A DNA stretch of 64,000 bases from contig JAMYGW020000005.1 of NCBI GenBank assembly GCA_025617375.2, forward strand, positions 1,984,001 to 2,048,000. The letters are read 5' to 3'. Positions 18,985-25,532 of the stretch are shown in pieces. The stretch is from Acarospora socialis (taxonomy: Eukaryota; Ascomycota; Lecanoromycetes; Acarosporales; Acarosporaceae). The translations under genes were made by a program, and so were the position numbers. Below the pieces are notes generated by a model. The model was not told where the DNA came from. It saw only the letters and a program-made list of their open reading frames with translations, and did not search any database. The first letter of the stretch is position 1. Each line of letters begins with the position of its first letter.

Positions 18985-21489
18985 TTACTGTGTAAATGGC
19001 GAAGGAGACTCTGACATTGCCATTATGCTCTTTCTATAGCTGCTCACACTGCTCCACCATGGATCAATATCGCCCAGCAAGCGTATAAACTGCTCCATGA
19101 CACTCTTGCTGTTAGCTCTGTAGAGTCTTAGATCCTTTTCTTCTGAAGTCGAGGATTCTAGACTCAACTCTGTCTCTGTGGGCACCGCGCCTGTTTGGTC
19201 ATGTGCGCCTGCAAATGCCCATAACACAACTGCAGCATGATGAAGTGCTACATGTGATAGCAATGTGAAGCTCGCTCTCTTTTCTTCTGGACGAGCTAAT
19301 TCTGCATTGAGCAGTCGCCACACCATGCACGCATGCTCTGCCGCTGACCTTGCCTCTGCTGTCTTAGCCCATGTGTATGTTTGTTGCGCTGTCTCTCGTG
19401 GTGCGTTGGCCTGTGGAGTGCTGCTTGTGAGTGTTAGGAGATGAAGAGATGGTAGGTCCGCATGTAGTCGCATAAATGATAGATGCGAGAGGAGATGCGA
19501 GGCAAGAACGGTTCTGCGGCATTGGCGTGACGACGATGCAGAAGGCGCGATAACAATGGTCAAAGCATTGTGGCACTTATGGATGGCGGCCAGAAGGCGG
19601 TTGAGATCGGTCTGGAGGTCATGCATATGACGGTGTGGAAAGAGAGGGTCATGAGCCGGTGCCTGCGACGACGGTCTTGAGCTGGTAGAGAGGGAGACGC
19701 CGAGGCGAGAGGCGAGGTGTGGATCATGGCTGAAGCGCCAGACTGCCTGCTGGAGGCCAAAAAGCAGGAGCTCTATCTGTTCGGACCGGAGTGGTGGTAA
19801 AGGCTCGTCCCGATCAAGAGCGATGCGAATTAGGTCGGCAAAGAGGAAGTCGTCACAGTGGGCAAGACCTGAGTTAGTGAGAAGTGCCCCGTGCAAATGA
19901 ACCCATACTGAATCAGGAGCTGGCATTTCGAGCAGTATCTCTTCTGGTGACATGAGTGGCTGCGTTCCCAACAACAAGCTGACAAACATGTCAGTACGCA
20001 ACATGCCGAAGGCGAGACGCTTCCGGGTTTGGTCTTTGATCCATAGCTGACTGTCTTTCCATGAATCAAAAGTCACACTGGTACTAGCCTGTTCGCCTAA
20101 ACGCTGCATCGACGTGAAGATATTCATTCTGCGCGCTAGAGCGACATTGATGCCACCAAGCTGCTGTGCGGTGGAAAAGGCTTTGCGGTGACCAAACCAC
20201 AGGGTTGTTGTCTGGGTGAGAAGTAGAGACTGTAACAACGAGGTGTTTGCCTCTTCTGGGAATTTGTGCCCGAGAGCTACCAAAGGAAGCTGTTCACGCA
20301 AGGCCTCGAAGACTCGTAGGTGATAGGCAGCAGCCGCTTTGCCTGCGTATACGCCACCAATGGCGCTTAGAGTAATGTAAAGATGGCGTGGAATTAGATC
20401 TAGGACAAGATCTTGGGTCCATAGTAGCGGCCAAAGGGGATGAAAGTGTTCAAAGTAGAGCTTGACAAAGTGTTCGAGGATATGCCTCGACGAGCTTGCC
20501 GCTATGGCCACACATTGGAGCTTGAAGGCATTCACCACGCTGCTAGACGCATCCTTCCAGATTCTGGAATTATCTGTCCCAGTCTCGACATAGGTCAAAG
20601 CGGTTGCGATCAAGTCGCCGATCACATACTGCTGGGTGGATGGATCTTCGACAAGGGAGCCAATCACCGTACCGCCAGAGGGTATGGATGTTGTATTCAC
20701 GATGTTCGATCCGGCCGCGTCCATCGCACTTCCAAAAGTAATACCATCTTGACTGGAAGTTGGTTTAGAGCCATTCGCAGGCGCTTGGAGTTGCACATTC
20801 GAAAATCTCGTATCGTTAGGGTTTAGGCCATGTTCGACCTGGGACTTTGAGGTTGGAATCATTGTCTCGCCCTCGCCAGTCCAGGAAGGCCAGCTAGGGT
20901 CTGACTGCATATACAAGTCCTCGTAGAGCCACGGCCATGCCGTGGTTTGAGACCACAAGTCGTCGAGTACGGTTATATCCGCTTCAACGCCTGGTCTAAA
21001 GTCGGGTGTCTCCAGGATCTTAGCAGGGCCATCTTGGCTGCTGGCTGGCAAACTTCTGTGGTCAGTCATGTCTGTATCGGCATCCTCTGACAACCTGAAG
21101 TCCTTTTCTAGTCTTCGTGTGGGACTGTTCTTCTCAAGTTCACACTCACGCCTCCCCTTCGCACAAGTCGAGCAAGGACTCGCACCATCGCACTTTACCT
21201 TCATTTGCTTGCATCTGCTGCAAGCACGTAGGCTCTTCAGCCGCCGTCCTGCAGTATTACTCCGCTGATGTATATGGCCATGGCGGTCCAAGAGGTCTTT
21301 GCGCCGGAACGTGGCATCGCAGCACTTGCAAGCGAACTGCGCGCGTTGGCCGTGATTCTTCCGATGGCGGTTGAGAGTCTCGGCGGCTTTGTAGCTGCGA
21401 TGGCAATCCGGACAGACGTGGCTTGACTTCGGCGATGCAGAGTCAACTGTCTGGTCTTCATTTCTTTGGTCTTCATGTGGATCGTCCAT
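18985..21489 (-). CDS. C2H2 plus Zn2Cys6 fungal transcription factor
   Basis: A single exon of 834 residues. Two C2H2 fingers occupy residues about 26-74 (CPDC...HRKNH; CKCC...HGHIH). A Zn2Cys6 binuclear cluster immediately follows at Cys 90, 93, 100, 106, 109 and 116. The middle (about 330-600) matches the fungal-specific regulatory domain (HFHPLWPLLWTQDL, LSAIGGVYAG, RMNIFTSM, LAFGMLRTDMFVSLLLG). Such dual-finger proteins are nuclear DNA-binding regulators; the target is unknown. Nearest neighbours are the metallothionein-like gene and, further right, the bicupin/monooxygenase pair, which makes a local regulatory link possible but unproven. Confidence 0.9.
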   Translation of the reverse strand: MDDPHEDQRNEDQTVDSASPKSSHVCPDCHRSYKAAETLNRHRKNHGQRAQFACKCCDATFRRKDLLDRHGHIHQRSNTAGRRLKSLRACSRCKQMKVKCDGASPCSTCAKGRRECELEKNSPTRRLEKDFRLSEDADTDMTDHRSLPASSQDGPAKILETPDFRPGVEADITVLDDLWSQTTAWPWLYEDLYMQSDPSWPSWTGEGETMIPTSKSQVEHGLNPNDTRFSNVQLQAPANGSKPTSSQDGITFGSAMDAAGSNIVNTTSIPSGGTVIGSLVEDPSTQQYVIGDLIATALTYVETGTDNSRIWKDASSSVVNAFKLQCVAIAASSSRHILEHFVKLYFEHFHPLWPLLWTQDLVLDLIPRHLYITLSAIGGVYAGKAAAAYHLRVFEALREQLPLVALGHKFPEEANTSLLQSLLLTQTTTLWFGHRKAFSTAQQLGGINVALARRMNIFTSMQRLGEQASTSVTFDSWKDSQLWIKDQTRKRLAFGMLRTDMFVSLLLGTQPLMSPEEILLEMPAPDSVWVHLHGALLTNSGLAHCDDFLFADLIRIALDRDEPLPPLRSEQIELLLFGLQQAVWRFSHDPHLASRLGVSLSTSSRPSSQAPAHDPLFPHRHMHDLQTDLNRLLAAIHKCHNALTIVIAPSASSSRQCRRTVLASHLLSHLSFMRLHADLPSLHLLTLTSSTPQANAPRETAQQTYTWAKTAEARSAAEHACMVWRLLNAELARPEEKRASFTLLSHVALHHAAVVLWAFAGAHDQTGAVPTETELSLESSTSEEKDLRLYRANSKSVMEQFIRLLGDIDPWWSSVSSYRKSIMAMSESPSPFTQ

Positions 21490-22479: not shown

Positions 22480-22647
22480 TTACTCAAAACACTAACTCGT
22501 GGGAGCGTTTCATTAGTCGTCCACAACCTCTATATATTAGGGAGAATAGGATAAACTTACACCAGGGCAGGTGGGAGATCCGCAAGCGCTGCACCTGTAG
22601 CAGCCGTCGCAGGAACCCTTACCACAGGTGGGGCAAGCGTAAGGCAT
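22480..22647 (-). CDS. Metallothionein-like Cys-rich mini-protein
   Basis: Two exons: 22561-22647 (29 codons) and 22480-22491 (TGT TTT GAG TAA), with a 69-bp intron that has a GTAAGT donor, a GACTAATG branch-like site and a GAGTTAG acceptor. The 32-residue product has eight Cys at 5, 8, 13, 16, 19, 22, 27 and 30: four CxxC pairs. The fourth pair (CPGC) is completed only by splicing, which strongly supports the model. There is no other aromatic pattern, signal peptide or domain. Fungal metallothioneins are similarly tiny Cys-rich cytosolic proteins that bind Cu(I), Zn or Cd. A metal-binding role is inferred from Cys spacing, not from close identity to a known member. The start context ACCATGC is good. 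The promoter carries a transposon-terminus-like repeat. Confidence 0.72.
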
Positions 22648-22691
22648 GGTTAATGTGAAATCGTGAGGCCTTTGAAAAACTAAAATTGTTG

Positions 22692-22741
22692 TACGAAGTA
22701 CGGAGGAAATAGTATTTAGTGTCCGGACGTACTATAAGCGG
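22692..22741. repeat. Single inverted-repeat-terminus-like sequence
   Basis: TACGAAG followed by TTTAGTGTCCGG.CG..CTATAAGCG matches the terminal repeats of the element at 54667-54930. No partner terminus was found nearby. It lies about 45-95 bases upstream of the metallothionein-like ATG. Confidence 0.6.
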
Positions 22742-22921
22742 CAACACAGGTCAACCGTACTATATCTGCTTGCTTACCAGGGCATTATATGACTTGTACA
22801 GTAAGAAGAGCTAGGTTTTTCAAGAGTCTGTGGCTGATCTTGATTTACTAATGTAAGACATACAGGCCAGTTTGATGGAAGATCATCTGCCGACCAGAAG
22901 GAAGGAAAAGCTGCAAGCACA

Positions 22922-25532
22922 TTACTCCGAATTCCCACCTATTAGGAATTGCTTGCCGCATTTCCTGCAAATCTTGTCCACCAGATATTCGTATCTCCTC
23001 CCAACGGCCATGACTTTCTTATGGACTGGTAACGGATTCGAGAACGCGAGTCTCGACCGGAGCAGGGGAATGATCCCCTCATAGTTCTCAACATCGTCAA
23101 ACAGATCTCTTGGTCCCGTTGTGGCCAGGACATGAGCGAAGTAGGAAAAGAAGTCCCATCGAGCCTGCAGAAATCTCTCAAAAAACGGATACTTGGAGAC
23201 GGGGCTCGTGCCCACCGCAACGAGAACCTTCTGCGCGTTCCCGAGTAAGTTTGCCCATTGGCCAGCGTAATTGACGATGATAGCTGATTCGACCCAGATC
23301 AGACACTCGTCTGTTGCGAGGAAACGCACTAGACGATTGCAGAGATTGTGAGCCATGGCGATCTCTTCGTGGTCCATGTCGTCGGGTAGTCGCGTTAGAG
23401 TCATCGCATCCCATAGGCCATAGACGACTATCGGATGAGGTGTTTCCCACCACTCCTCGCATGAGTTTTCGGGATTGTCACGATAGAGCTGTAGATTGTC
23501 CCTGCCAGCTGTCGAGGACCCGAAGTACCATAGAGCGGTTCTGCCGCGCAAAAGCTGCCGCAATCTTCGAGCCTTCAGCAGGCGAGGGAGCTGGTGACCT
23601 TTACAATCCGAAGCTGACATGATATACTGTTTCGCGCTAAGATGTATGTAGTCGATGCCGCGAGTCACCTCTTCTTCCGACCAGCTTAATTCCATCATGG
23701 GACCACCGAGGAGTTTGGCGATGCTCAATGGATCCAAGGGAGAATCGCCATCACCATTGACGGCCTGGAAAATCACCGACAAGATTGACTCGTCTATCGA
23801 CCACTTCTCACCTTTGGAGAGCAGCCAATTGTAGTCTTCGGTGTCGACCCACAGAAACAACTGCTGAGCCCATTCGATCTGCCACGGTGTGAGCCTATCG
23901 GCATGCCGTTCTAAGAGTTCAAAGTACGTTTCGGATAGACCATGCGGTAGCCGGCGCAGCTGACGTTCGATTGCTGAAGTCGTAGGCGATTCGGTGACTG
24001 CATCAACCATGAGCTTGGCATAGAGCCAGAGGCCATTCACTTCGTCGTTTACTTTCTTTGATATGGCCCTCTTGAGGTTTGCATTAGCCAATGTGCTGCA
24101 GTCAGACAGCCTTTGGTCGATGTAGACCTCAATCGGACTCCGAGTCATCTCCGATGTCATTTGAAGACAGGGATGCTTCTCGAAGGATTTGAGAATGTCG
24201 GTTTCGTTGCGACCCGTCACAAGGATTTTGATGACTGACGGGTACTGAGAAAGGAACGATTCTAGGGCCTCGAAGAGCTGGGCCCTGTCCGACAACTCGT
24301 CGAGAGCGTCAATCACAACATAGAGCACGGGAAGTCCTTCTAGTACTTGGCTGAACATGTGCTCAATTTCCGAAATCGAGTCCGCTTTTTCCCGGCCGTT
24401 CTCCTGATACAGAGGGATTATGATATCGTATGCCGATTTGTGAAGTTTCAGGATCTGCGAGAGGAGCGTTCTCAAGACATTCAAGCTTGTAGCCCGATCT
24501 TTGGAGCCGCTCTTACAGAAGAAGTAGACGGTCAATTCTCCTGACTGCTCGAGTCGATCGTAGGCTGCAGTCGCGAAGTGTGTCTTACCAGCCCCAGGAT
24601 GACCTCCAACCCGCAGGAGAGATGACTCAGGTCGCGCTACCCACTCTTCAAACTCACTTGAGCGAAGCAGAGGATCACAAGACAGCGGCATAAGCTGACG
24701 ACGGCAGCGGAGGAGGTCATCTCGGATATTCGAGGGTGAGAGCCACCGCTGCAACGCCATGCGCTGCTCATCTGGCAGACCTTTAGCTATTGTCGTAAGA
24801 CACAAGTGGGCGGAGCTAACCGTTATATCTATTGTTCTCGGTCTCTCTGAAACTCCTGTTTTCCCTCAGGCTAGTCGCGTTCGCTACCCAGTCCATCTGC
24901 TGACTGTCATACTGAATCTTCTCCCAGACGTCGTCGAACTCCTTATTGAAATCGTGTCGAATGAAGCGGTGGTATGGCAAGGAATGATATTTCACCGCGC
25001 GCGTGCAGAAATCGATAAAATCCGTGTAAAGTGTGCCGATCGCGCGCTTTGCCGTTTCATTGCTCTTGAATAGCTCTTCGTAAGTCTGTGCCCGAGGCAA
25101 CAGTCCCACAACTCGCTCCAAGATCTTGGTAAGCTTCTCGACCGACTTCAGATGATCGCCGGCCAACGTGATCACTATCCGTATCGGACCCCATATCGGC
25201 GAACAAAATATCCCGTTCGTCTGAACAAGGACATCCACAGCCCCCTCGAACCTCTTCAACGGCTCTATGAGCGGTCTCAAGGTCTCTAACACCTTTGTGA
25301 AGCCGACTCGTTTCCGGCCATTCTGCGCTCCACGCACGGCGGCGATGCAGTCTTCGGCGCTCGTTGGCGTTTGAAAGGCAGCTCTTTGCGCAGGTGAAAG
25401 ACCGACCAAGTGTGTCTCAAGTGCCAATTCCCATGCTGTCGACGGGGAGCTGAGCAGGCTCTGTATACAAGGCATAGTCAGCCCGAGGACGGTCGTGGTG
25501 GAATCTAGTAAGAAAGCCTTGCCATTATACAT
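22922..25532 (-). CDS. DUF7708-NACHT STAND protein, doubtful internal join
   Basis: The first part (25532 to about 24820; ATG at 25530-25532, alternative ATG at codon 20) is an all-helical N-terminal module like DUF7708 (GIFCSPIWGPIRIVITLAGDH). The second part (to the stop at 22922) carries a NACHT ATPase: Walker A GGHPGAGKTHFA, Walker B LYVVIDALDEL, sensor ILVTGR. A winged-helix-like region (GLSETYFELLERH) follows, then a tail with one CRKCGKQ pair and no ankyrin or WD repeats. The two parts lie in different frames near 24785-24830. A GTTAGC donor gives a 34-bp intron, shorter than any other here; a weak GTTTCA donor gives 67 bp and also keeps phase. A frameshift is the alternative. Family members act as self/non-self or immune-like switches. 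Confidence 0.72.

Follow-up and report, generated by a model that had tools for sequence, protein, structure and literature searches.

Does a short minus-strand segment of the Acarospora socialis genome, lying within the 64-kb stretch of DNA analysed here (the window), encode a peptide, and what might that peptide do? Gene finders would miss such a gene, given a product of 32 residues whose last cysteine lies beyond an intron. A first-pass annotation of the same DNA had placed a metallothionein-like gene at 22480-22647, with a 69-bp intron whose removal supplies an eighth cysteine. Its sequence and coordinates agree with the minus-strand reading, and splicing does yield 32 residues with eight cysteines at the spacing it had given. 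The parts of the candidate gene are as follows.

22561..22647, minus strand: exon 1, MPYACPTCGKGSCDGCYRCSACGSPTCPG, 29 codons with seven Cys
22492..22560, minus strand: intron, 69 bp, phase 0, with a GTAAGT donor and a TTAG acceptor
22517-22512, minus strand: ACTAAT branch-like site inside the 69-bp intron
22480..22491, minus strand: exon 2, 12 bases, Cys-Phe-Glu-stop, bringing the eighth Cys

The predicted spliced product, MPYACPTCGKGSCDGCYRCSACGSPTCPGCFE, has its eight cysteines arranged as CxxC-x4-CxxC-x2-CxxC-x4-CxxC; unspliced, the frame reaches a stop after 36 residues with seven cysteines. The start context, ATTAACCATGCC, is of a type that looks normal for a fungal gene, and the 28 codons 5' of the ATG contain neither a stop nor a Met. 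Seven of the 61 GT..AG splice forms enumerated at the locus combine a GT[A/G]NG donor with a YAG acceptor, and among these seven a YTRAY branch-like site and eight cysteines occur together only in the form with the 69-bp intron. One other form (acceptor 22469) also gives eight cysteines, without a branch site and not in the CxxC arrangement. Strings of the type GTAAGT..CTRAY..YAG are enriched in 264 kb of the genome (22 observed, the candidate's included, vs 7.26 expected). Folding of the 100 bases of RNA downstream of the candidate gave nothing remarkable (z -1.56), and a search for repeats at the locus found none. We regard a very small gene, split by an intron and encoding a regular eight-cysteine array, as well supported, and the candidate is very probably a genuine gene, which would be transcribed, spliced and translated.

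A chance open frame, or the untranslated remnant of a decayed gene, might in principle carry such an array. The null was a third-order Markov model built on 264 kb of the genome, and 64-kb windows were simulated from it. The first 1,800 simulated windows held five arrays of three and a half CxxC, one with an ATG near and none completed, and a further 50,000 held 86, ten with an ATG near and again none completed, giving 91 arrays, 11 with an ATG near and none completed to four CxxC in 51,800 windows. This null is too low for real cysteine arrays, since two of 20 other real 10-kb stretches carry a three-and-a-half CxxC array; their presence above the simulation's prediction lends the chance reading some support, but neither of the two is led by an ATG or completed. 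A separate count (three CxxC within 26 codons) gave four rows across the 264 kb, falling at three places of which the candidate is one. With the reservation that the null underestimates real cysteine arrays, the lack of any completion in the simulations bears out the first-pass view that the array is very unlikely by chance.

A bias in third codon positions also argues against a chance frame. Fourfold-degenerate codons of the candidate end in C or T in 14 of 15 cases, whereas long ORFs (at least 350 codons) average 53% (binomial p 0.001), and seven of 766 blocks of 16 in the long ORFs reach 15. A GAPDH frame, in which noncoding ends may be included, has 71% of 116 fourfold codons ending in C or T, and histone loci were left out of the comparison because their frames are not cleanly separable from their surroundings. 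The codon adaptation index of the candidate is indistinguishable from genome usage (24% of draws were equally high). Its total codon log-odds is -7.7 bits, negative because Cys is rare; synonymous choice alone gives +1.4. Taken with the simulations, we consider a chance frame or gene remnant very unlikely.

The peptide is 25% cysteine (8/32), with five overlapping CxxC and no CxC. It contains three aromatic residues (2 Tyr and 1 Phe), and Leu, Ile and Val are all absent. Two 12-residue halves, CPTCGKGSCDGC and CSACGSPTCPGC, share the pattern CxxCGxx[S/T]CxGC and are identical at 6/12 positions. Two of its motifs, CPTCG and CSACG, resemble the C(P)XCG motif as defined in the available text of PMC11241148, where the proteins described are archaeal. 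We favour a real, probably expressed gene whose 32-residue product is a metallothionein-like thiolate buffer, and rate this reading at about even chances. As it lacks the Leu, Ile and Val from which a core could be built, the peptide would fold around metal; it may bind about two ions of Zn(II) or Cd(II), either as Zn(Cys)4 sites or as a small cluster. This reading ranks best, with a structural zinc microprotein as a close rival.

The metallothionein-like reading can be set against other metallothionein-like genes of the same genome. The Neurospora crassa metallothionein found no match when used as a genome query. A Heliscus-type metallothionein query matched contig C11 (E 0.013), where two small CxC metallothionein-like frames lie about 1 kb apart, MT_B upstream of MT_A.

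L278:1501-1578 (contig C11, about 69-70 kb): MT_A, intronless, eight Cys, MSPCTCASCGCSGDCSSCGCSSCGV
L278:491 to about 720 (contig C11): MT_B, two introns, seven Cys in the array, beginning MGPGCTCSCGSSCSCPTGQCDC

Both are predicted genes, known here as frames only, and with them the candidate would not be the sole small thiol-rich gene of the genome. Four two-intron models of MT_B add 1, 4, 36 or 41 further residues after MGPGCTCSCGSSCSCPTGQCDC. An intron follows directly after the last cysteine of its array, and in two of the four models the last exon directly follows a Cys codon and encodes one or four residues. A Metallothi_Euk2 profile match in the genome (E 0.47) is below cut-off and has one stop inside. 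Such genes easily stay hidden: one of the pair surfaced through the metallothionein query, the other by reading the adjoining DNA. The candidate might act beside these two CxC genes, possibly sharing out metals with them. The first-pass proposal of a metallothionein-like product is upheld in part: the cysteine content, the lack of Leu, Ile and Val and the tiny last exon in two of the four MT_B models speak for it, while the lack of CxC and of any BLASTP similarity to MT_A (best E 37) speaks against it, as the three aromatics may.

The rival structural reading supposes a zinc-knuckle type of microprotein, with one or two Zn(Cys)4 sites in a small rigid fold that would bind protein or nucleic acid and whose job would not be metal buffering. 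It draws on the CxxC pairs, which are the only cysteine spacing present and two of which are C(P)xCG-like, on the aromatics, and on the zinc proteins found among the matches in the PDB, where a sequence search returned 36 matches at E up to 10. C2H2 arrays come first (best E 2.2e-11), but these sum a recurring short match (PYACPxCGK, about ten residues), and since each such match alone has an E of 9 or more, a C2H2 fold is unsupported. Zinc-ribbon and RING proteins follow from E 0.2 upward, among them an HVO-2753-like zinc ribbon at E 0.26. Haloarchaeal C(P)XCG zinc micro-proteins of under 70 residues offer a precedent in the available text of PMC11241148. The reading sits less well with the lack of Leu, Ile and Val and with loops of just four and two residues between the CxxC pairs. 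Moreover, no Pfam or NCBIfam profile matched above cut-off (best Pfam zf-HIT, E 0.014); Pfam gave no match on the N. crassa metallothionein or on MT_A either, so its silence on the candidate says little. The pattern of the Zn2Cys6 cluster, C-x2-C-x6-C-x5-12-C-x2-C-x6-8-C, is absent from the peptide. Overall, we see a structural zinc microprotein as possible, though doubtful, and retain the metallothionein-like buffer as the preferred reading.

The surroundings of the gene bear on its likely regulation and on a third view of its product.

22648..22921, minus strand: 5' intergenic region, 274 bp, reaching the stop codon of the NPHP3_N frame
22851-22845, minus strand: TTAGTAA, AP-1/Yap1-like, single; TTASTAA is expected 0.019 times per 274 bp
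Between 22799 and 22691, upstream of the candidate: five copies of GTAC
22922-24805, minus strand: NPHP3_N frame, upstream of the candidate, with NACHT just under cut-off
24816-25532, minus strand: DUF7708 frame, upstream, adjoining the NPHP3_N frame
18985-21489, downstream of the candidate: Zn2Cys6 and Fungal_trans frame, 834 residues

The NPHP3_N and DUF7708 frames (22922-25532) may together form a single intron-split NLR-like gene, and the 834-residue downstream frame shows, close to its N-terminus, weak C2H2 fingers that stay below cut-off (E 0.01). We counted the single upstream TTAGTAA in favour of the metallothionein-like reading. It is as compatible with oxidative stress as with metal, which leaves room for a real gene whose cysteine-rich peptide forms disulfides or has a redox or other role; small cysteine-rich peptides are, moreover, common in fungi. 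On the other hand, the regular CxxC pairs would point to metal, and a peptide of 32 residues with no Leu, Ile or Val offers no hydrophobic stretch for a signal peptide, which makes conventional secretion unlikely. We therefore hold a disulfide or redox role to be improbable.

The Ace1-type, MRE, STRE, Mac1 and Zap1-type patterns scanned have no match in the 274 bp upstream. No Ace1-type or MRE match occurs upstream of MT_A and MT_B, so the absence of these two at the candidate is uninformative; one STRE is found at MT_A and none at the candidate. Two copper-fist regulator matches in the genome decide nothing, because the upstream regions of the candidate, MT_A and MT_B all lack an Ace1-type site. 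At least five GTAC occur in 22 of 13,053 160-bp windows, some of which overlap the candidate itself, and the string GTACTT(T)CGTACAA is common to the candidate's upstream region and the MT_B promoter. The best local alignment between the two scores 15, which lies at the 90th percentile among 300 random windows. The word GTACTTCGTACAA (window 22689-22701) has 29 copies plus two with an extra T, or 31 in 31 Mb, against four genome-wide for its reversed control. Gene-specific co-regulation via GTAC was rejected, as the word is frequent genome-wide and the promoter alignment is ordinary.

A search of the 31.1-Mb, 38-contig genome, whose gene content points to a fungus, with the peptide (E up to 10) returned one match, the gene itself. 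Beyond fungi, the eight-cysteine pattern was scanned at the DNA level in prokaryote and viral sequences, where it matched at least 118 genome and at least 120 viral stretches. Among the matches listed, 82 of 118 genome and 49 of 120 viral cores are free of stops and unknown residues, four genome and two viral cores have at most nine cysteines, and none of these four and two looks related to the candidate by eye; the remaining inspected cores among them are mostly low-complexity cysteine runs. A tighter eight-cysteine pattern matched one viral contig, likewise a low-complexity cysteine run. As a separate observation, Tepidicaulis marinus (L091, about 3596) has a 93-residue stop-free bacterial frame with a CNPC-type, cysteine-rich C-terminus.

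None of six fragments of the candidate peptide was found in print by a literature search, and a topic search of titles and abstract openings found none describing a CxxC-only type with eight cysteines. An undescribed metallothionein type, as the first-pass annotation had suggested it may be, is a plausible candidate reading. We propose only tentatively, and with more doubt than confidence, the fuller version: an undescribed fungal thionein of two CxxC-x4-CxxC modules with a two-residue joint, specialised for Zn/Cd and working beside CxC metallothioneins. A Zn/Cd preference is a guess by analogy from the CxxC-only layout, because CxC-rich proteins have been reported as Cu-thioneins. A Cd-specific metallothionein, known from a cited title, is said to come from an aquatic fungus. 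A Fusarium metallothionein is reported as Zn-regulated in the available text of PMC9036806. Given these two, the arrangement of cysteines says little about the metal. In the accessible parts of PMC4755600 and PMC13107397, fungal metallothioneins fall into six families, which in the latter account have few members, and the majority of the characterised ones are Cu-thioneins; the proteins of N. crassa and A. bisporus and Cup1 are reported as such in PMC4755600. If the proposal is true, a CxxC-only eight-cysteine peptide would be a new cysteine architecture among fungal metallothioneins, and could represent a Zn/Cd-dedicated thionein of a filamentous fungus.

How does the candidate compare with known systems? 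The DnaJ-type zinc domain has four CxxCxGxG repeats that bind two Zn. The candidate shares the four CxxC repeats and has no CxxCxGxG motif. Haloarchaeal HVO_2753, as described in the available text of PMC11241148, is like the candidate in having under 70 residues and four CxxC-type motifs, but it is archaeal and all four of its motifs are C(P)XCG, against two in the candidate. Despite its predicted zinc sites it binds only one zinc; four C(P)XCG motifs thus need not mean two zincs, and AlphaFold2 was unable to tell (PMC11241148). Among Agaricomycete heptaCys metallothioneins, AcMT2 has exactly the length of the candidate (32 residues), with seven cysteines against eight, small exons and introns of about 50 bp, and the AcMT1/AcMT2 motif C-x4-C-x-C-x2,3-C-x-C-x4-C-x-C, as given in the accessible part of PMC12508003, is absent from the candidate.

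Seven metallothioneins were compared directly: MT_A, MT_B, that of N. crassa and four from yeast. By the general yardstick of small size and high cysteine content the candidate qualifies with 32 residues and eight Cys, its 25% falling within the 16-32% of the seven. These carry three to seven CxC each, the candidate none. Metallothioneins typically have few or no aromatic residues. The candidate has three; aromatics are absent from MT_A, MT_B and the N. crassa protein, and all four yeast sequences have two or three with His counted. The Fungi-I (family 8) signature is CGCS-x4-CxC-x3,4-CxCSxC; in this form it fits the N. crassa protein only (one of eight sequences), and the candidate, MT_A and MT_B fail it. 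The N. crassa protein (Fungi-I, family 8), MT_A and MT_B differ from the candidate in their three to four CxC each. They are tiny like the candidate, with 23-26 residues and seven to eight cysteines, and hold at most one Leu, Ile or Val, where it has none. MT_B, further, is intron-split as the candidate is, and two of its four models end in a similarly tiny exon.
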